From Acidobacteriota bacterium (GTDB lineage Bacteria; Acidobacteriota; Terriglobia; Bryobacterales; Bryobacteraceae), in assembly GCA_016871155.1 (NCBI GenBank), contig VFZO01000008.1:1-62441 (forward strand): a stretch of 62,441 nt of DNA, in the 5' to 3' direction. Below, one piece after another: positions 1,819 through 44,057 of this stretch. The notes beneath the pieces were generated by a model, which was not told where the DNA came from, made no database searches, and worked only from the letters and a program-made list of their open reading frames with translations. A program made the position numbers and the translations under genes. Within the stretch, counting starts at the first letter, position 1; each line of letters opens with the position of its first letter.

Positions 1819-4555
1819 AGATGAACTCGTTCGACGCAAACAAAATCCGCGCCAGGCTCTGCCACGCGCTGGACTCTTGCATCTTGGGGAATTGTTTCTG
1901 GAACGCCGCGGTGTAACTCATCGCGTTATCGATCTCCGCGGGCCGCGCCGATCGATTCAGAATCTTCAAGTACAACCGCTCCGCGCGGTCTTTCAGCGGC
2001 AACCCGGCCGCGTCTTTGGCCACCGCTTCGGCCTGCTCGGCGACGAACTTCGAATTCATCAGGAACAACGCCTGCGGCGCGACGTTGGTCACGATCCGCT
2101 TGCCGTTGGCCGTCGTCGCATCGCCGAAATCGAACAGGTTCAACAGCGCCGGCAAATTCGAGCGCCGCAGCGGCAGATACACCGACCGCCTCGTCTGCTC
2201 CTCCGGACTAATCGACATGCGGCTATTTGAGCTTTCCGAATCGGTGCCGAAGCCCGTCTGCATCGTGCCGCCCATCGTCATGTCGATCTTGCCGCTGATC
2301 GCCAGCATGCCGTCGCGCATCTCTTCAACCAGCAACCGGCGCCGCGGGAACCGCGAAAACAGCCGGTTTTCCGGATCCGCCTTGGCCGCTTCCGCGCTCG
2401 GCGCGCTGCTCATTTGATAGGCGTCCGACAACAGAATCTGCCGGTGCAGCTTTTTGATGCTCCAGCCGTCGCGCACAAACTGCGACGCTAGCGCATCGAG
2501 CAACTCCGGATGCGTCGGACGCTCACCCATGCGTCCGAAATTATCCGGTGTCCGCACAATCCCTTCGCCAAAATGCCAGTTCCACACGCGGTTCACGATC
2601 ACCCGCGCCGTCAGCGGATTTGTATCGCTCGCCAGCCAGCCGGCCAGTTCGCGCCGCCCGCCTCCTTGCGTGATGATCGGCCGGTCTTTCCCGGCAACAA
2701 CCAGCGGAAACGTCTTCGGCGCATCCTCGCCGAGCACATTGTAATCGCCGCGCACAAAAACCTTTGCATTAAAGGGCGTTGACTCCTCGATCCCGCACGC
2801 CATATCCGGCTCCGGCGGCAGCTCGTCTTTCAACTTCTTTTGTTCCGCGCGCAACACCGCGAGCTCCTTCTTGCCGGCCTCGGAAGCGATATCGTCGATC
2901 GCCTTCGACGCGATCCCGAACGGTCCGGCATCGGCGAACACGTCCCGGAAGAAGCCGTCCTTTTCATCGATCAGCTTCGGCATCTCATACAGCATGTTCT
3001 TCTCTGCGAGCTGCTTCCGTTCCCGCACGCGAAAAGCGCTCATCTTCTTCGCCCACGCGGCCAAATTCTCCTTCGCCGACTCCTGCAGCTTCGCGATCGC
3101 CGCCGCGTCGTTATCGCCCTTGTGAAACGCATCGAGCCACGGCCGCGGCACTTCGGTCTCGTTGAAATGCGCCACCCATTTTTCGATGACGCGCTCGTTC
3201 AGCCCAAGCGTCTTGTCGTAATTCTTCTTCGCGCGCACCGCTCGCGCGGCCAGCATGTAATCGCCGAGCCGTTCGAGCCACTTCTCCTGCACCGCTTGGC
3301 GTTCGCGGTCGATGACGATTCCGATATCGATGCCCTTGTTCGCCACCACGCTTTGCGCCGCTTCGTATTTCTCGTACTCCGCCTTCGAAACCAGCGGCGT
3401 AAACAGCAGCATCGCCACGTTCGGTTCGGTATCGCGGAATTGCTTAGTCGACGCGAACATCCCCATCATGCCGTAGTAGTCTTTTTGCGTCAGCGGATCG
3501 AACTTGTGATCGTGGCACCGCGCGCAGGCGAGCGTCACACCGAGAAACGTCTTCGACAACACATCGATCTGTTCGTCGTAGACATCCAACACCATCTTCT
3601 TCTTATCCTGCTGCGCGACCGCCTTCGCTCCGAGAGTGAGAAATCCCGTCGCGATAATCCCTCGCCGGTTCACCGGCTCGCCCGGCGCGGCCGGCATCAA
3701 ATCGCCCGCCACCTGTTCGCGGACAAATTGATTGAACGGAAGGTCATGATTGAACGCGTCGATTACATAATCGCGGTAGCGCCAGGCGTACGGATAGCGG
3801 TGATCCTCGTCGTTGCCCGTCGAATCGGCATAGCGCGCCACATCCAACCAATGACGCCCCCACTTCTCGCCATAACGCGGGCTCGCCAGCAGCCGCTCGA
3901 CGACTTTTGCATACGCATCCTTCGAACTGTCCGCCAAAAACGCCGCCAGTTCTTTCTCGGAAGGAGGGAGTCCATGCAGATCATAGGTTACGCGGCGCAG
4001 CAGTGTTGCGTTGTCGGCGCGCGCCGCGGGCTTTAAATTCTTCGCGGCCAGCGCTTCGCGCAAATACGCATCGATCGACTTTGCCGCCGCCGGTTTCGCT
4101 ACCGGCTGAAAGGCCCAGAACTTCCATTCGCTATCCGTAAAAGCCGACCCGTGCTTCCGCGTCCCGCTCGGATTCGTCGCCGCATTTGCGGGCCGGGGCC
4201 CCGCGCCCGGCCAGGGCGCGCCCATCTTGATCCACTCACGGACCTTGCCGATCTCGTCGTCTTTCAACTTCCCCGTAGGCGGCATCTTCAGCGACCCGTC
4301 ATAGGTCAAGACCTTCAGGATCAGAGATTGATCCGGCGTCTCGACGTTGACAAGCGAACCGCTGGCGCCGCCGGCGAAAAACGCGTCGCCGGTGGACATG
4401 TCAAGGCCCGAGGTCTTGGCCTTGGCATTGTGGCACGTCGTGCATTTCGTGGCGATCAGCGGCCGGATATTCTTTTCGAAGAATTCTGCCTGCGCCGTGG
4501 TTTGCGCCTGCATAGCCGCGGACAGCCCGAGAATCAGGAACCGTAGTCTCGACAT
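1808..4555 (-). CDS. PSD1-type cytochrome c/DUF1549/DUF1553 protein, locus 1
   Basis: A 915-residue secreted protein. It has a signal peptide (about residues 1-23), a cytochrome-c-like domain with heme motif CTTCH at 38-42, a DUF1549 domain starting near residue 160 and containing a second CxxCH motif (CARCH, 344-348), a long helical spacer, and a C-terminal DUF1553 domain (NPLTARVIVNRVWNWHFG and the end NEFIYVD). Such proteins are typical of Planctomycetota, Verrucomicrobiota and Solibacter-like acidobacteria and are nearly always followed by a DUF1501 gene, as here (11-bp overlap). A periplasmic or secreted redox role is inferred from the heme motifs; the substrate is unknown. Confidence 0.85.
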   Translation of the reverse strand: MSRLRFLILGLSAAMQAQTTAQAEFFEKNIRPLIATKCTTCHNAKAKTSGLDMSTGDAFFAGGASGSLVNVETPDQSLILKVLTYDGSLKMPPTGKLKDDEIGKVREWIKMGAPWPGAGPRPANAATNPSGTRKHGSAFTDSEWKFWAFQPVAKPAAAKSIDAYLREALAAKNLKPAARADNATLLRRVTYDLHGLPPSEKELAAFLADSSKDAYAKVVERLLASPRYGEKWGRHWLDVARYADSTGNDEDHRYPYAWRYRDYVIDAFNHDLPFNQFVREQVAGDLMPAAPGEPVNRRGIIATGFLTLGAKAVAQQDKKKMVLDVYDEQIDVLSKTFLGVTLACARCHDHKFDPLTQKDYYGMMGMFASTKQFRDTEPNVAMLLFTPLVSKAEYEKYEAAQSVVANKGIDIGIVIDRERQAVQEKWLERLGDYMLAARAVRAKKNYDKTLGLNERVIEKWVAHFNETEVPRPWLDAFHKGDNDAAAIAKLQESAKENLAAWAKKMSAFRVRERKQLAEKNMLYEMPKLIDEKDGFFRDVFADAGPFGIASKAIDDIASEAGKKELAVLRAEQKKLKDELPPEPDMACGIEESTPFNAKVFVRGDYNVLGEDAPKTFPLVVAGKDRPIITQGGGRRELAGWLASDTNPLTARVIVNRVWNWHFGEGIVRTPDNFGRMGERPTHPELLDALASQFVRDGWSIKKLHRQILLSDAYQMSSAPSAEAAKADPENRLFSRFPRRRLLVEEMRDGMLAISGKIDMTMGGTMQTGFGTDSESSNSRMSISPEEQTRRSVYLPLRRSNLPALLNLFDFGDATTANGKRIVTNVAPQALFLMNSKFVAEQAEAVAKDAAGLPLKDRAERLYLKILNRSARPAEIDNAMSYTAAFQKQFPKMQESSAWQSLARILFASNEFIYVD

Positions 4556-20152: not shown

Positions 20153-21799
20153 CTATCGGAATCCGAACGCGGCGATCGGTACGCCCAGCGTGCGCGGGTC
20201 TCCGTTTGTTGGACGGAACGGCGGCTCCACGCGGAATTCCACATCCACCATCTCGTCCTTGGCCGCCGGCGGAACGGCGAAGTAGTCCGTCAGCCAGCCG
20301 TTCTCCGTATACACGGGCTTGCCGATCTCAACGCCATTGACGAGGACAGTAAGCGTCGACCTCTTCACAGCCGCGATGTACTGTGGACTTACGTTCACGG
20401 TTACCGAAAAGCGCGTTCCGCCGGCCGGTTTGCGCAGCTTCGCCTTGGCCACCGGCGCGATCCAGCGGAAGCGGTCCTCGCCCTGAAACCAGCCTTCGGT
20501 CAAGAGCCAGAAAGGCGTCAACCGGCCCAGTTCGATATAAGCCGCGTCGTTGCCCGCCGTGCGCCGCAGTGCCAGCAGATCGCGCTGCGAAGCGCTCCAG
20601 CTCAGCACGGCGAGCGTCTTCGCGGCATCTGGCTCCGGCCGCCGTGTGTCTTCGACAAACGTTGCGTTTACCTTGTCGCGATCGAACGCCAGCCGCAGCG
20701 CGCCCTCGACGCCCCACCGGCGCATCGAAGCCGGATAGCCGTCGATCAGGATCTGCTCGATGTCCGGCATTTCGCGCGCGACGCCGCGCACCTTCCCAAC
20801 GTAAATCCGCGTCTCGTCCGCCTCCGCCAGCGCCACGTTGCGCCTGTCGCGCAACGCGAAGTACTGCAGCGGCAGCCACAGCAGCAGCGCGGCGGTCACC
20901 CAGCGCCACCGGTCCACCACGGCGGCGAACGCGATACCGAGTCCCGCTAAGGGCAGATAGAGATAGGCGCTAAACAGGCGGCCCGGCACCGCAAACATCG
21001 GCCCCAGAAACAGTAGCAACGCGGCCATTCCGAACCAGACGCGTTTGTCCTTCCAGTGCAATAACGGCAGCAGGGCCACAGGCCCTAGTGCAGCACCGTA
21101 GAACTGCACCGCCGTCCACAGCGTCGCCGGCGTCAGCCGAATCCCGTAGTCGCCCGCCTGACCCGACTGCATCAGCAGCGCCTGCCCGGCGAACAGCGCG
21201 GCCACCGCGCCGTGCGGAATCAAGGCGCGGAACCGCTTCTGCCCGAACCACTGCTCATAAAGCGCAAGCACCAGTGGCACAGCCACGGCCAGTTCCTTGG
21301 ATTTATACGAGAGAAAGAAAAGGCCCAGGCTCCACCAGCGGTGGCCGCCGGTCCAGCAGAGGATCGACGCCAGCGCGAAGGCGGCGCACAACACGTCAAA
21401 AACATACATCGGCTTCCAATAGGCGTCGAACGCCGCCATATGAAATGCGAACAGGACGGTGCCCGCCGCCCGCGCCAGCCACGGTAATTCGAACTTGCCG
21501 CAAAGCCGCCACAGCAGGATCGTGTTCAGAAAATGCAAGCCGTGAACCACAGCCATGTACGGCGGGTATTGCAAGTCCGCCCAGCGCCCCATGCACCAGA
21601 AAAAAAAGTGGCCAACGGGCCGGAAGTTGGTTGTATAAAACCTCGGCGTGAACAGCCCCTCCACGAACGCGTCGTAGTGGGCGAAGCGCGTCCATGCCAA
21701 ATTGTCCAGATCGTCGGAGGAGAAATAACCCTTATACGCGCCTTTGCAGGCCACATAGAAGAGCCAGCCCAGCACCGCGAAAAACAGCCGCGTCTTCAT
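20153..21799 (-). CDS. Polytopic membrane protein resembling GT-C glycosyltransferases
   Basis: A 548-residue protein with about 9 to 11 predicted membrane helices in the first 350 residues (for example LARAAGTVLFAFHMAAF, VDRWRWVTAALLLWLPLQYF) and a soluble beta-rich C-terminus of about 190 residues. An SDDLDNLAW motif follows the first helix, matching the acidic catalytic motif in the first extracytoplasmic loop of GT-C (PMT/ArnT-like) enzymes, which use lipid-phosphate sugars. Glycosyltransferase activity is therefore plausible but unproven. Its ATG overlaps the stop of the upstream IlvD/Edd gene (ATGA), so the two are probably co-translated. Confidence 0.6.
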   Translation of the reverse strand: MKTRLFFAVLGWLFYVACKGAYKGYFSSDDLDNLAWTRFAHYDAFVEGLFTPRFYTTNFRPVGHFFFWCMGRWADLQYPPYMAVVHGLHFLNTILLWRLCGKFELPWLARAAGTVLFAFHMAAFDAYWKPMYVFDVLCAAFALASILCWTGGHRWWSLGLFFLSYKSKELAVAVPLVLALYEQWFGQKRFRALIPHGAVAALFAGQALLMQSGQAGDYGIRLTPATLWTAVQFYGAALGPVALLPLLHWKDKRVWFGMAALLLFLGPMFAVPGRLFSAYLYLPLAGLGIAFAAVVDRWRWVTAALLLWLPLQYFALRDRRNVALAEADETRIYVGKVRGVAREMPDIEQILIDGYPASMRRWGVEGALRLAFDRDKVNATFVEDTRRPEPDAAKTLAVLSWSASQRDLLALRRTAGNDAAYIELGRLTPFWLLTEGWFQGEDRFRWIAPVAKAKLRKPAGGTRFSVTVNVSPQYIAAVKRSTLTVLVNGVEIGKPVYTENGWLTDYFAVPPAAKDEMVDVEFRVEPPFRPTNGDPRTLGVPIAAFGFR

Positions 21800-23493
21800 T
21801 CGGCGTGCAGAAAGTCGAAGTCGCAGCCTTCGTGCGCCTGCGTCACATGGTCGAGAAACAGCTTGCCATAGCCGCGCGTGTAGTGGGGTTCGTGGACTGG
21901 CCGCACCGCCAGCCGCCGGGCGATCTCATCGGCGGGCACGTGCAGCGTTAACTCTCTCTTGGCGACGTCGAGCGTGATCCGGTCGCCGGTTTCGACGATC
22001 GCCAGCGGGCCGCCAATCGCCGATTCGGGCGAAACATGCAACACCACCGTGCCAAACGAAGTTCCCGACATGCGTGCATCGGAGATTCGAACGCAGTCCG
22101 ATACTCCCTTCTCCAGCAGCACGCGCGGCATCGGAATGTGCGCCCACTCCGGAAATCCTGGCGCGCCCTTCGGCCCGCCATTCTTCATCACCAGGACCGT
22201 GTTCTCGTCGATCGGCAAATCGCTTGAGTCGATCGTGTCGTGCATCTGCTGGTAGTTCTCGAAAACATAGGCCGGACCCGTGTGCTGGCACAGGTGCGGC
22301 GAGGCGGCCGTCTGCTTGAACACTGCCCCGTCGGGAGCCAAATTTCCTCGAAGCACCACGGTGCCGCCCTCCGGATGCAGCGGCGTCTCCCGGGCGGCGA
22401 TCACGTCGCGGTTGTGGCACACGGCCTGGGACACGTTCGCCTCCACCGTCTTTCCGTTCACCGTCACGGCGTCACGATGCAGTTGGGGCAACAGCTCCCG
22501 CATCAGGGCCGGCAGCCCGCCGGCATGGAAAAAATCCTCCATCAGGTGCTGGCCGGACGGACGGAGATTGGCCAGAAACGGCGTCTTGCGCGAGATGCGG
22601 TCGAAGTCGTCGAGCCGCAGCGGCAAGCCCAGCCGGCGCGCGATCGCCAGCAGATGCACCACCGCGTTCGTCGACCCGCCAATCGCCATGTCCACAGTGA
22701 TCGCGTTCTCCATCGCCTCCCAGGTCATGATTGACCGCGGCGTCCGCGCCTCCGCCACCAACTCGATCGCTAGCCGCCCGGAGGCCTCCGCCAACGCGGC
22801 ACGCCGCGAGTCCACGGCCGGAATCGCCGCATTGCCAGGCAGCGTCATCCCCAGCGCCTCCGCCATCGATGCCATTGTCGACGCCGTGCCCATCACCGTG
22901 CAGTGCCCGCTTGACCGCACCATGCAGCCCTCAATCTCCTGCAACTCCTCCGGCGAAACCTTGCCGGTCCGGTAGAGATCAAAGATCTTCCGCCCATCGG
23001 TGCCGGTGCCAAACGGCTGGTTCTTGTAGTTGCCCGAAAGCGTCGGACCGCCCGTCACAACCACAGCCGGAATGTTCGCCGAAGCCGCGCCCATCAGCAT
23101 CGCCGGCGTGGTTTTGTCGCAGCCGCACAGAAGCACCACCGCGTCGATTGGATTCGCCCGGATCGACTCCTCCACGTCCATCGCCATCAGGTTACGGAAC
23201 AGCATCGTCGTCGGCTTCATGAACTGCTCGCCTAGACTGATGACCGGAAACTCCAGCGGAAATCCGCCGGCCTCCCACACCCCGCGCTTCACCGCCTCGG
23301 CCAATCCGCGCAGGTGTGCGTTGCAGTTATTCAGCTCACTGAAGGAGTTGCAAATCCCGATCACCGGCTTGCCGAAAAATATCTCGCGCGAAAATCCGAT
23401 GGACCGCAAGTTCGCCCGGCGCGAAAAGTTGTAGTACTCCTTGCCGTTGAACCAAGTGTAGGAGCGAAGAGCTTTCGGATCGATGGAGGCCAT
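21796..23493 (-). CDS. IlvD/Edd-family dehydratase, sugar-acid (L-arabinonate) type
   Basis: A 565-residue Fe-S dehydratase that removes water from a 2,3-dihydroxy acid. Conserved cluster-ligand segments are present: GICNSFSELNNCN, LLCGCDKTTPAMLMG, and SSGHCTVMGTASTMASM. The AIGGSTNAVVHL and ARMSGT segments fit the family. From memory it resembles Rhizobium-type L-arabinonate dehydratase (CDKTTP, the SRRANLRS-like N-terminus, length) more than branched-chain IlvD, so a sugar-acid role is favoured. The start at 23493 (MASIDPKALRSY) is preferred; an upstream Met at 23532 would overlap the divergent selenoprotein start. Neither has a good ribosome-binding site. It overlaps the downstream membrane-protein gene by 4 bp. 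Confidence 0.82.
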   Translation of the reverse strand: MASIDPKALRSYTWFNGKEYYNFSRRANLRSIGFSREIFFGKPVIGICNSFSELNNCNAHLRGLAEAVKRGVWEAGGFPLEFPVISLGEQFMKPTTMLFRNLMAMDVEESIRANPIDAVVLLCGCDKTTPAMLMGAASANIPAVVVTGGPTLSGNYKNQPFGTGTDGRKIFDLYRTGKVSPEELQEIEGCMVRSSGHCTVMGTASTMASMAEALGMTLPGNAAIPAVDSRRAALAEASGRLAIELVAEARTPRSIMTWEAMENAITVDMAIGGSTNAVVHLLAIARRLGLPLRLDDFDRISRKTPFLANLRPSGQHLMEDFFHAGGLPALMRELLPQLHRDAVTVNGKTVEANVSQAVCHNRDVIAARETPLHPEGGTVVLRGNLAPDGAVFKQTAASPHLCQHTGPAYVFENYQQMHDTIDSSDLPIDENTVLVMKNGGPKGAPGFPEWAHIPMPRVLLEKGVSDCVRISDARMSGTSFGTVVLHVSPESAIGGPLAIVETGDRITLDVAKRELTLHVPADEIARRLAVRPVHEPHYTRGYGKLFLDHVTQAHEGCDFDFLHAE

Positions 23494-23512: not shown

Positions 23513-23519
23513 AAGGAGG
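23513..23519 (+). promoter_or_regulatory. Strong ribosome-binding site for the UGA-containing gene
   Basis: AAGGAGG, a near-perfect anti-16S match, ends 11 bases before the ATG at 23531. It decides the start: translation begins upstream of the in-frame UGA at 23567, and the internal GTG at 23612 has no comparable site. Confidence 0.8.
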
Positions 23520-23530
23520 CATATTCACAC

Positions 23531-23881
23531 ATGAAGTCGATCGACTGGTCTTATCACCGCCCCGGTTGAACCACCTGCGGCAAAACGCAGGGGTTCCTTG
23601 CGAAACACAAAGTGGCCGTAACGGCCGAGCAAAACGCCAAGAAACAGACGATTCCCCGCGAAGAAGCCATTCGCCTCGCCCGTCAATCGGAGGAGATCGT
23701 CGCCGCCAAAGGCAAAAACGTAGTGCGGCTGAACTTAAAAAAGCAACAGGCTTCCGACGACGAGATCGCCGCGTTGATCGTCGGTCCCAGCGGCAACCTC
23801 CGCGCGCCGAGCTTTCGAGTTGGCAAGCGCCTCGTGGTCGGCTTCGACGAGACGGCGTATAAGGAGGTCCTGGGCGCCTGA
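23531..23881 (+). CDS. ArsC-like thioredoxin-fold selenoprotein (UGA read as Sec13)
   Basis: A 116-residue protein if the TGA at 23567-23569 is read as selenocysteine. The start (MKSIDWSYHRPG) runs into U13-T-T-C16, a UxxC redox motif where the ArsC-like family has CxxC or UxxC. The frame continues without interruption (GKTQGFLAKHKV, then REEAIRLARQSEEIVAAKGK and GPSGNLRAPSFRVGK) to TGA at 23879. The family is known in databases as ArsC family (seleno)protein; its role is probably thiol redox, not proven arsenate reduction. A perfect Shine-Dalgarno precedes the ATG and hairpins follow the UGA. If UGA were a stop, only 12 residues would be made and the conserved remainder would lack its active site. 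Divergent from the IlvD-like gene. Confidence 0.85.
23567..23602 (+). promoter_or_regulatory. Candidate bacterial SECIS hairpin next to the UGA
   Basis: After the UGA, CGCAGG (23586-23591) can pair with CC-U-UGCG (23596-23602), leaving a bulged U and a GGUU loop at 23592-23595. The loop begins 22 bases after the UGA and has G in its first two positions, in line with the bacterial SECIS consensus (upper stem, small loop with early G, 16-37 bases from UGA). A competing, longer hairpin pairs GAACC-CCUGCG with CGCAGG-GGUUC from 23568 to 23596, with one bulged A and loop GCAAAA. Which one forms is not known. Confidence 0.6.
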
Positions 23882-38103: not shown

Positions 38104-38841
38104 CTAGTAGAAGGACCGGACAAGTGAACCAACGACGAGATTCCAACCGTCAACCATCACGAACAGCAGGATCTTGAAAGGCGCGGAAACCATCGCTGGC
38201 GGAAGCTGAACGATGCCGACGCTGAGTGTAATGGAAGCGACTAGCAGGTCGATAATCAGGAACGGCAGAAACAGCATCGCGCCGATCTGAAACCCGGTCT
38301 TAAGCTCGCTCAGCACGTAAGCCGGTAAAAGGATGCGCGGTTCTAGCTCGCCCGCCGTGGCCGGCGCCGTGCTGTGCGAAACCTCGATCAGCATCCGGAC
38401 ATCCTTCTCCCGGACGAAACGGATCAGGAACTTCTGGATCGGCTCAGCCCCTTTCTTCCAGGCCGCCTCCCCTTTCAGTTGCCCTTGTTCATATGGAAGC
38501 CAGCCCTTCTCGTAGGACTCCTTCAGCACCGGCTGCATGATGACCATCGTCAAAAACAAGCTCAGCCCGATCATCACCTGATTCGACGGGGCCGACTGCG
38601 TGCCAATCGCCTGGCGCAGGAAATGGAGCACCAGCGTAATGCGCAGAAACGGCGTCGCGGACATCAACAGGACCGGCAACAGCGTCAATCCCGTCAGCAA
38701 CAGGATGATCTGCATCGGCAGGCCGATGGTCCCCGAAGTGAGTGAGATCACCTGTTGCGGCGAGGCCGCCGGCGCTGGCAGTACGGCCGGCGCGGCAGAC
38801 GCCGCGCCGGCCAAAAACAGAAGAAGGGCTAACCGGCGCAC
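38104..38841 (-). CDS. fliP: Flagellar export gate protein FliP
   Basis: A 245-residue protein, the usual FliP length. It starts with a cleavable signal (RRLALLLFLAGAASAAP), then GTIGLPMQIILLLTGLTLLP, the signature TPFLRITLVLHFLRQAIGTQ, and the C-terminal AYVLSELKTGFQIGAMLFLPF and FKILLFVMVDGWNLV. The start is GTG at 38841, with an AAAGGA site at the right spacing, and it overlaps the end of fliO by 13 bp. The frame runs open far upstream through fliO, but that is shadow sequence. FliP forms the pore with FliQ and FliR. Confidence 0.93.
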   Translation of the reverse strand: MRRLALLLFLAGAASAAPAVLPAPAASPQQVISLTSGTIGLPMQIILLLTGLTLLPVLLMSATPFLRITLVLHFLRQAIGTQSAPSNQVMIGLSLFLTMVIMQPVLKESYEKGWLPYEQGQLKGEAAWKKGAEPIQKFLIRFVREKDVRMLIEVSHSTAPATAGELEPRILLPAYVLSELKTGFQIGAMLFLPFLIIDLLVASITLSVGIVQLPPAMVSAPFKILLFVMVDGWNLVVGSLVRSFY

Positions 38842-39125
38842 GCGCGAAGGTCCTTTCGGATCGGAACGGCAACCGCTGGCGGAGGCGCGGAGTTCGACGG
38901 AAGGCTGACGAGCGAGCACGGCTGCGCACCGGTCGACAACAGAAACTCCTGGTTGTCCCAGCGGACCAGCACCAATTGGCAACCCGGGCTCAAATTGACC
39001 CGTTGTTCCACCGCTAGGCGGCGGCCGGCGTTGGAACCCAGGTTGGCGCGGCGAAGCCAGTGCGAAGCAACGGCCAGGCCGCCAACGGCGGCGAGCACCG
39101 CGAGAATTTGCAGGGCGAGTTCCAT
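38829..39125 (-). CDS. fliO: Flagellar biosynthesis protein FliO
   Basis: A 98-residue protein with one N-terminal membrane helix (LALQILAVLAAVGGLAVA) and a short cytoplasmic domain (LAVEQRVNLSPGCQLVLVRWDNQEFLLS), the family pattern of a helper for FliP assembly. Start and stop overlap the neighbours: the ATG shares one base with the fliN stop (TAATG) and the end overlaps fliP. Assignment rests on pattern plus position between fliN and fliP. Confidence 0.87.
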   Translation of the reverse strand: MELALQILAVLAAVGGLAVASHWLRRANLGSNAGRRLAVEQRVNLSPGCQLVLVRWDNQEFLLSTGAQPCSLVSLPSNSAPPPAVAVPIRKDLRACAG

Positions 39126-39373
39126 TATTCCTCCAGATTGAAGTCAGTGATGCGGACACCCATCGTCGATTCGATAATCACGATTTCGCCGAAGGCCACC
39201 GTTGCGCCGCCGGCGATGACATCGATGTTCTCGCCGGCCGATCGCGTCATCTTGATCACGCTGCCCTTTTCGAGCTTCAGGATCTCCCGAAGACTCATCG
39301 TCTTCCGGTCCAGGTCGACGACGATGTCGATCGGAACGTCCGCCATCAGGCCGATCTCTTCAATCACCTTCAT
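39125..39373 (-). CDS. fliN: Flagellar motor switch protein FliN
   Basis: An 82-residue protein consisting of just the SpoA domain: DVPIDIVVDLDRKTMSLREILKLEKGSVI (read in parts), RSAGENIDVIAGGATVAFGEIVIIE and MGVRITDF. It forms the lower C-ring. It lies between flgE (6-bp gap) and fliO (1-bp overlap). A second protein with this domain is encoded at 30981-31847. Confidence 0.92.
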   Translation of the reverse strand: MKVIEEIGLMADVPIDIVVDLDRKTMSLREILKLEKGSVIKMTRSAGENIDVIAGGATVAFGEIVIIESTMGVRITDFNLEE

Positions 39374-42514: not shown

Positions 42515-43255
42515 ATGGACGCACTAGGCATCGCAGCGGCAAGCGGACTCCGATCCCGGATGGAGAGTCTCGAGATGATCGCGAATAACATGGCGAACGC
42601 GACCACCGCAGGCTTTAAGGCGGACCGCGAGCACTATGGAATTTATTGGTCTCCGGACTCGACCTCGGCGCTTGACGAAGGGCGCGGGGGCGCCGGAGCC
42701 TCGCCCACTATCGAACGCAATTGGATCGACTTCGCCCAAGGCGCTTTCTTGAGAACCGGTGCGCCCACGCACGCCGCACTGAGCGGAGACGGGTTTTTCG
42801 CCGTCCGGCGCGGCGACGAGACGCTTTTCACTCGCAACGGGGAGATGCAGGTCTCGGCAAATGGCACTCTGGTCAATCTCGAAGGGCTCCCTATGGAAGG
42901 CGTCAACGGACAGCCGGTGCGGGTGAACGGCGCTCAACCGATCGAAATCCGGGCCGACGGTTCGGTGATGCAGGAAGGCGCCGCCGTGGGCCAACTGCGC
43001 GTAGTCTCATTCTCCAACCGGCAACAGTTGCAAAAAGCCGGCCACACCTACTTTCGATGGCCGGGTGAAACGCGAGACATTAGCGCCTCGCGCGCCCAGG
43101 TGGTGCAGGGCGTTTTGGAATCGGCCAATGCGGGACCGGCGGAAGGCGCGGTCCGAATGGTCAACGTTTTACGCCAGTTCGAGGCGCTGCAAAAGGCCCT
43201 CCAGCTTGGTACCGAAATGAGCAAACGCCTGCTCGACGACGTGGCGAGGGTCTAA
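42515..43255 (+). CDS. flgF: Flagellar basal-body rod protein FlgF
   Basis: A 246-residue proximal/distal rod protein. Start is ATG at 42515 (MDALGIAAASGLRSRMESLE), aligned to the usual N-terminus; the frame opens 33 bp earlier. The rod motif MIANNMANATTAGFKADREH and the FlgF/FlgG family middle (GDGFFAVRRGDETLFTRNGE) and C-terminal helix (RMVNVLRQFEALQKALQLGTE) are present. First gene of the plus-strand flg operon; flgG follows 10 bp after the stop. Confidence 0.9.
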   Translation: MDALGIAAASGLRSRMESLEMIANNMANATTAGFKADREHYGIYWSPDSTSALDEGRGGAGASPTIERNWIDFAQGAFLRTGAPTHAALSGDGFFAVRRGDETLFTRNGEMQVSANGTLVNLEGLPMEGVNGQPVRVNGAQPIEIRADGSVMQEGAAVGQLRVVSFSNRQQLQKAGHTYFRWPGETRDISASRAQVVQGVLESANAGPAEGAVRMVNVLRQFEALQKALQLGTEMSKRLLDDVARV

Positions 43256-43265
43256 GGAGGCCGGA

Positions 43266-44057
43266 ATGATCAGAGCACTATTCAGCGCGGGAAGCGGTAT
43301 GTCGGCGCAGCAAACCAACGTCGACAATATCGCGCACAATCTGGCCAACGCCAACACCGTGGGCTTCAAGATGCGCCGGGCCCAGTTTCAGGATCTGCTG
43401 TATCAGAACCTTGTGCAGCCGGGCGCCGCCGCCGGTACGCAGACGGTCGTGCCGAGCGGCTTGCAGATTGGCCTTGGCGCGCGCGCCGCATCGAATGAGA
43501 TCATCTTCACGCAAGGGAGCTTCCTGCAGACGAACAACCCCCTCGACCTTGTGGTGGAAGGCCGGGGATTCTTCCAGGTTCGCAGGCCGACCGGCGAGAT
43601 CGCCTATACCCGCTCCGGGCAATTTCAGTTAAATCGCGACGGGGTGCTGGTGACCGGGGACGGCGACCCAATCGAGCCTCAGATCACCATACCGGCCGAG
43701 GCTCAGTCGGTCACGATCGCCACAGACGGAACGGTGAGTTTCTCCCAGTCCGGCCAGGCGGCGGCGCAGTTGGCCGGACAGATCCAACTGGCATCGTTCG
43801 TCAACCCGGCCGGCATGAACATGATCGGCCGCAATCTGTACCTTCCAACCGACGCATCTGGCGAGCCCATTATCGGAAACCCTGGCGGCCAGGAAGGGAT
43901 CGGATCCCTGCTGCAGGGCTATGTGGAACAGTCCAACGTCAGCGTCGTAGAGGAGTTCATTGGCCTGATTATGAGTCAACGCGCCTACGAAGCGAACTCG
44001 AAAGTGGTGAGAGCCGCCGATGAGATGTATCAGCAGATCAATAACATTACTCGCTAG
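43266..44057 (+). CDS. flgG: Flagellar distal rod protein FlgG
   Basis: A 263-residue rod protein, normal length. Hallmarks: MIRALFSAGSGMSAQQTNVD, NIAHNLANANTVGFKMRRAQ, ELVVEGRGFFQV-like DLVVEGRGFFQVRRPTGE and the C-terminus NVSVVEEFIGLIMSQRAYEA followed by NSKVVRAADEM. An AAGGAGG site sits six bases before the ATG. Its last 38 bp overlap the start of flgA. Confidence 0.95.
   Translation: MIRALFSAGSGMSAQQTNVDNIAHNLANANTVGFKMRRAQFQDLLYQNLVQPGAAAGTQTVVPSGLQIGLGARAASNEIIFTQGSFLQTNNPLDLVVEGRGFFQVRRPTGEIAYTRSGQFQLNRDGVLVTGDGDPIEPQITIPAEAQSVTIATDGTVSFSQSGQAAAQLAGQIQLASFVNPAGMNMIGRNLYLPTDASGEPIIGNPGGQEGIGSLLQGYVEQSNVSVVEEFIGLIMSQRAYEANSKVVRAADEMYQQINNITR

Follow-up and report, generated by a model that had tools for sequence, protein, structure and literature searches.

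Does the TGA at position 23567 end a short open frame, or is it read as selenocysteine (Sec) inside a longer gene? The question arises on the forward strand of contig VFZO01000008.1 of an Acidobacteriota bacterium of the Bryobacteraceae (assembly GCA_016871155.1), of which a stretch of 62,441 nucleotides, hereafter the window, was analysed. We regard it as close to certain that the gene at this locus codes for a thioredoxin-fold selenoprotein of 116 residues, a member of the known family NF041106, with UGA 23567 read as Sec, a reading that we infer from conservation and from the sel genes of the source genome. The window gene is a new member of an already catalogued selenoprotein family, and its parts are as follows.

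23531..23881, + strand: coding sequence of the ArsC-related selenoprotein, 116 residues including Sec13 (translation, NF041106, PF03960, structure model)
23567..23569, + strand: UGA read as Sec13, first position of the UxxC motif (TGA in 60 of 60 genomes; Cys codon in 7 homologues)
23576..23578, + strand: TGC codon of Cys16, likely the resolving Cys of UxxC (invariant in 33 of 33 aligned rows)
23513..23519, + strand: possible Shine-Dalgarno site AAGGAGG, 11 nt 5' of the ATG
23612..23881, + strand: shortened open reading frame (ORF) of 89 residues with a GTG start, downstream of the active site (mechanical ORF list)

Reading frame and family membership

The frame had been proposed in a preliminary description of this DNA, and both sequence and translation bear it out: ATG 23531-23533 and 12 codons (MKSIDWSYHRPG) are followed by TGA 23567-23569 and by 103 open codons (TTCGKTQGF...) that end at a stop TGA at 23879-23881. 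The same description expected gene callers to start after the active site, and the sole frame given for the locus by a mechanical ORF list is indeed the 89-residue one from GTG 23612, in which Sec13 and Cys16 are lost. Taken alone, the frame and the AAGGAGG site prove little. When TGA-split frames were defined by at least 100 open codons 3' of the TGA and an in-frame ATG no more than 30 codons 5' of it, 24 of them were counted on both strands of the window, the selenoprotein gene's own included, and AAGGAGG occurs 12 times in this GC-rich DNA; for these reasons the open frame, which as such lies within chance expectation, and the Shine-Dalgarno site were rejected as proof. AAGGAGG was found within 20 nt 5' of the start in none of the 33 other loci listed. 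What does go beyond chance is the NF041106 score, the conservation of the peptide 5' of the TGA, and an RNA hairpin.

The read-through protein matches NCBIfam NF041106 (ArsC_rel_Se_1, 'ArsC family (seleno)protein') over the whole model (1-107 of 107) at 133.7 bits, the curated cut-off being 85 bits, and the same gene scores 126.1 bits in a six-frame genome search. That the family was already known, as had been stated, is correct. Among 200 genomes of the taxonomic family, 33 exceed this cut-off, and one in-frame TGA is present in all 33; the corresponding figures for 396 genomes of the phylum are 28 and 28, with the source assembly counted among them. When both sets are pooled, one in-frame TGA is found in 60 of 60 genomes over the cut-off.

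The active site of the window protein reads U13-TT-C16, with the TGA in frame at the first position of UxxC. On the 5' side of the TGA, residues Y8, H9, R10 and G12 are invariant in 33 of 33 aligned rows. The 33 loci L039-L071 were all read, without the construction bias of a larger set of 109 loci (L089-L197), whose search pattern allowed only TGA, stop or Cys together with flanking residues, so that conservation there is partly by construction. In that larger set the pattern read TGA in 92 loci, a Cys codon in seven and gave no reading in ten, and in the seven homologues the Cys codon stands exactly at the TGA position. The proposal of Sec at the first Cys position of a CxxC motif agrees with the TGA of all 60 genomes as well as with the Cys homologues, and the upstream peptide proved to be conserved. 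On a poorly resolved tree of 114 rows, obtained from 133 loci after removal of duplicates and short rows, the Cys forms need two changes.

The hairpin downstream of the UGA

A bacterial selenocysteine insertion sequence (SECIS), which the preliminary description had missed, lies 3' of the UGA, and its 5' arm is shared with a second hairpin.

23586..23602, + strand: bacterial SECIS hairpin with stem CGCAGG/CUUGCG, apical pair G23592-C23596 and loop GUU 23593-23595 (conservation, folding)
23568..23596, + strand: competing hairpin sharing the 5' arm of the SECIS and preferred by the free RNA (folding; weakly above a synonymous null)

With the U of the UGA numbered 0, the stem pairs run from 19-35 to 24-30 and the apical pair is 25-29. 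The loop begins 22-23 nt after the UGA with a G, and so fits the bacterial SECIS rules in the Fig 2 legend of PMC13188914, which place the hairpin 16-37 nt after the UGA and a G within the first two loop positions (this and the other papers are cited here from excerpts). Compared with the consensus published there, the hairpin has the same small apical loop of G then U, 6-7 bp stem and distance from the UGA, but is very uniform across phyla and shows a coupled A-U/G-C alternation of its apical pair.

As the collections of loci overlap, distinct sequences were used, and 126 Sec loci correspond to 98 distinct 48-mers. Over these 98 sequences, standard pairs occupy 638 of 686 SECIS pair cells. 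Fewer than seven pairs in the SECIS register were counted in 21 sequences, of which 13 are without one or two pairs and eight (of L102-L115, L163, L168 and L169) have, judged by eye, another stem in a slightly shifted register. Across 100 distinct sequences the SECIS codons are frozen (Thr ACG 73/73, Glu GAG 77/77, Leu CTT 87/93) and the codons 5' of the UGA vary; in the rest of the genes, CTT makes up 111 of 1362 Leu codons (loci including duplicates). The mean fold energy of -9.91 rose to -5.80 (standard deviation 0.23) when codons 6-11 were replaced by synonyms, no shuffle mean being lower than -6.34, and for the window SECIS alone 6 of 1000 synonymous shuffles reach its fold energy. The seven Cys forms keep two to five of the seven SECIS pairs.

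Of the 98 distinct sequences, 72 have A-T and 14 have G-C as the apical pair, and this alternation is tied to the protein. Residue 21 is Glu in 77 and Gly in 14 of 100 distinct Sec sequences; after GGG, the next codon has C as its last base in 14 of 14 cases, and after GAG it has T there in 71 of 78. The window protein has Gly21, accompanied by the matching silent change in Phe22, and hence the G-C form, with Glu and A-T in its five nearest tree rows. About eight changes between A-U and G-C are placed on the best tree, four independent pairs being on starred branches; a sign test gave a median p of 0.125, where four pairs are too small a number to reach 0.05 and some pairings included a pair without a difference. 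The excerpts of the cited literature contain no description of the coupled Glu/Gly and T/C change, at which no dedicated search was aimed.

The lowest-energy fold of the free RNA around the UGA is the hairpin 23568-23596. When the first 12 nt from the UGA are removed from the fold, as a ribosome might do, the SECIS core reaches a probability of 0.99 in the window and more than 0.5 in 80 of 98 sequences. The competing fold is favoured by 32 of 98 sequences, compared with a synonymous-shuffle mean of 26 (standard deviation 3), and none of 60 shuffles reached 32 (maximum 31). Nevertheless, when the window's own coding sequence is shuffled synonymously, this hairpin still arises in 67% of cases, for which reason we rate it weak as a regulated alternative; it is probably incidental. 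As a SECIS candidate it was rejected, since only about 11 nt separate the UGA from its loop, too few for the 16-37 range, and its conservation is lower (482 of 588 standard pair cells as opposed to 638 of 686). A more elaborate joint reading would combine a translation-gated switch, in which the ribosome at the UGA opens 23568-23596 and the SECIS forms and recruits SelB just in time, with an RNA constraint that chose Glu21 to Gly together with the silent Phe22 change, turning A-U into G-C. We consider this combination quite improbable.

Selenocysteine machinery and other readings of the UGA

The search for Sec machinery in the source genome, suggested along with the original proposal, was successful for all components except selC. 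The assembly (G000) comprises 7.2 Mb in 577 contigs, with 99.87% completeness and 6.54% contamination. It contains selA on contig C200 (482.3 bits) and selD on contig C43 (L022, 357.3 bits), both over their cut-offs, and selD has its own in-frame TGA, which was translated. Two selB pieces, at the end of C110 (profile 1-119, 165.8 bits) and at the start of C297 (profile 136-578, 179.9 bits), each remain below the cut-off of 242.25 bits and are apparently one selB split by contig ends. A second selD piece was observed at a contig edge, the start of C107 (L023/L084), and may be a second copy or contamination.

The tRNA-Sec gene (selC) was not found in this assembly, where seven weak matches are Ser, Leu, Trp, Cys and Phe tRNAs; it is present in 17 of the 18 other genomes of the genus. 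A gene of 186 amino acids linked to selC occurs in the same 17 genomes, in 15 of them on the same contig as the tRNA, and both are missing from G000 and from the 58%-complete G013. Since the usual neighbour gene is absent as well, a missing assembly segment is the likely and simplest explanation, and a true deletion of selC is possible. A position of selC just past the end of contig C392 was rejected, as this contig has the 3' half of a tRNA-Ala only, preceded by unrelated sequence, and no tRNA is detected there by ARAGORN. On the same contig, two partial tRNA-Ala 3'-half matches (L086 and L087, G000:C392:100-445 and 3852-3890) are separated by 3.7 kb, and ARAGORN detects no tRNA in L086; the paired fragments may have been left by an integrated element. 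Across the taxonomic family, tRNA-Sec (E <= 1e-10) was detected in 30 of the 33 genomes that carry the gene. This co-occurrence gives weak support to the Sec reading, since Sec decoding is common in the family anyway (154 of 200 genomes).

Two other readings of the UGA were weighed. If the TGA were a true stop, the locus would be a pseudogene or truncated gene, of which the part from GTG 23612 alone, or nothing, is translated; the single 89-residue frame of the ORF list and the abundance of TGA-split frames in the window (24) fit such a state. It is hard to reconcile, however, with a TGA kept in 60 of 60 genomes, with invariant columns on both sides of it, and with frozen SECIS codons and coupled apical changes, and we give it a very slim chance. 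The UGA might otherwise be passed by general stop read-through, by a suppressor tRNA or as a recoded codon. The missing selC would suit this view, UGA read-through needs no SECIS, and the L089-L197 pattern was blind to residues other than TGA, stop or Cys; yet the Cys codon of seven homologues, the conserved SECIS that matches published rules, and the presence of selA, selD and a split selB make a residue other than Sec just as implausible as a pseudogene. In the Sec reading, which we prefer, SelB with Sec-tRNA-Sec would bind hairpin 23586-23602, and the ribosome would read UGA 23567 as selenocysteine.

A second hidden selenoprotein in the window was considered and rejected for the 20 of 23 other TGA-split frames that were scanned against Pfam: the only matches were to flagellar rod/hook and FliP domains, and in both matched frames the domains lie 3' of the TGA. 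The flagellar genes, at 38107-39246 (- strand) and 43128-44054 (+ strand) of the window, carry a FliP domain and FlgE/F/G-type rod or hook domains.

Fold, relatives and gene neighbourhood

In the predicted structure model (mean pLDDT 87.6), Sec13 lies just ahead of helix 14-25, and Cys16 is next in UxxC. Structure comparison by VIA-align gave Spx, YffB and ArsC-related proteins as the closest solved structures. The Spx/MgsR and YffB-type ArsC relatives (TIGR01617; PDB 6ghb, 3gfk and 1rw1), which are the best sequence matches and among the best structure matches, share the fold and a CxxC at the same place; however, the TIGR01617 score (44 bits) is under its cut-off of 75.05, and a Lys aligns with Arg60 of Spx, the residue that contacts RNA polymerase alpha. 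With the glutaredoxin-dependent ArsC (TIGR00014) the window protein has in common the Pfam family (PF03960, 34.2 bits, cut-off 24), and ArsC likewise has Tyr-His ahead of its catalytic residue. The label 'ArsC-like' is correct for the fold and superfamily, but not for the nearest structures or for TIGR00014.

A dedicated arsenate reductase with a catalytic Sec would agree with the Pfam ArsC score above the gathering threshold and with the name used in PMC13188914. We nonetheless find such an enzyme unlikely. The TIGR00014 equivalog is not among the seven NCBIfam families at E <= 1, a list from which weak matches can be filtered out, and R773-type ArsC structures do not appear in the sequence-match list at E <= 1, an absence that shows little. 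R773 ArsC uses Arg60, Arg94 and Arg107, whereas the window protein has Lys where Spx has Arg60, and no arsenic gene was found among ten neighbour-cluster representatives scanned, the remaining clusters being viewed by eye only. Judging by fold and motif, the protein would most likely act through attack of the Sec13 selenolate on an oxidised substrate, after which a Sec13-Cys16 selenenylsulfide would form and be reduced by thioredoxin or a low-molecular thiol. The protein is probably a selenenylsulfide-forming redoxin, for which sequence and model do not support arsenate as substrate over others.

The excerpt of PMC13188914 lists NF041106 as 'Arsenate reductase-like protein' with UxxC, citing its reference 61, which from the order of the reference list we take to be PMC2398784. 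The latter has an 'Arsenate reductase 2' (cd03032, UxxC, 42 sequences), PMC9312934 also has an 'Arsenate reductase-like protein' with UxxC, and PMC1794560 lists an ArsC-like selenoprotein for Desulfotalea and, for Desulfuromonas, a distant homolog of ArsC. The selenoprotein 'Arsenate reductase' of PMC1088965 is UxxS, unlike the UxxC protein of the window. A literature search for NF041106 returned PMC13188914 only. In comparison with NF041106 itself, the window protein shows a full-length match and UxxC with Sec first, and differs in nothing essential, with Gly21 where most members have Glu.

A scan of species genomes yielded at least 579 relatives, and the records of the best 80 of these are named Acidobacteriota, Planctomycetota, Methylomirabilota, Rokubacteria and others; one of the two peptide patterns used required Cys to be encoded at the Sec position, so that Cys forms are favoured. 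Viral copies were sought as well, and none of 64 pattern matches was confirmed. Two metagenome-assembled genome (MAG) records that carry this selenoprotein are named Klebsiella pneumoniae and Candidatus Kuenenia (L144 and L169); L144 clusters with a proteobacterial MAG on the tree, and the species names of both records may be wrong. In the phylum scan, the next nine matches below the NF041106 cut-off, down to 53.7 bits, also have one TGA, and at least some of the lower-scoring matches, among which TGA is present or absent, are members of a second ArsC-like family. Within the Bryobacteraceae this second group has the motif KPTUTTCRKA, with TGA forms (L073-L075, L079, L080) and Cys forms (L076-L078 and L081, the last being CTTS). 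For one member, entered without the C-terminus, the TIGR01617 score is 68.9 bits (cut-off 75) and no NCBIfam cut-off is exceeded, although the complete protein might do so. Open frames on the minus strand form two clusters at or close to the selenoprotein gene (39 and 32 of 115 distinct loci), which probably result from high GC and constrained codons.

The following neighbouring genes were annotated in the window and at related loci.

21796..23493, - strand: dihydroxy-acid dehydratase (ilvD/edd family), divergent neighbour (PF00920 390 bits, PF24877 198 bits); the start is our choice, the second ATG of the ORF
L126, L142, L143, L157, L172, L178 and L197, same strand as the ArsC-like gene: TIGR01777 gene upstream of it (two of these are Cys forms)

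Downstream of the window gene lies a PSCyt2/PSD1 and DUF1501 pair, and recurring clusters of neighbour ORFs include sulfatase, Lon, TPR, DUF1501, 2-oxoglutarate dehydrogenase and esterase genes. An assignment of function from neighbours was rejected, as most clusters are, by eye, confined to close relatives and the phylum-crossing TIGR01777 gene is not beside the window gene. This YfcH-type NAD-dependent oxidoreductase is encoded directly upstream, on the same strand, at 7 of 115 distinct loci from several phyla, and is a possible functional partner in those lineages.

The main value of the finding lies in the correct annotation of the gene and in an unusually clear RNA signal. The covarying SECIS provides a clean sequence test for members of a family that is broad and spans several phyla, and the coupled Glu/Gly and T/C change, which recurs, neatly illustrates how an RNA signal can be tied to a protein residue.
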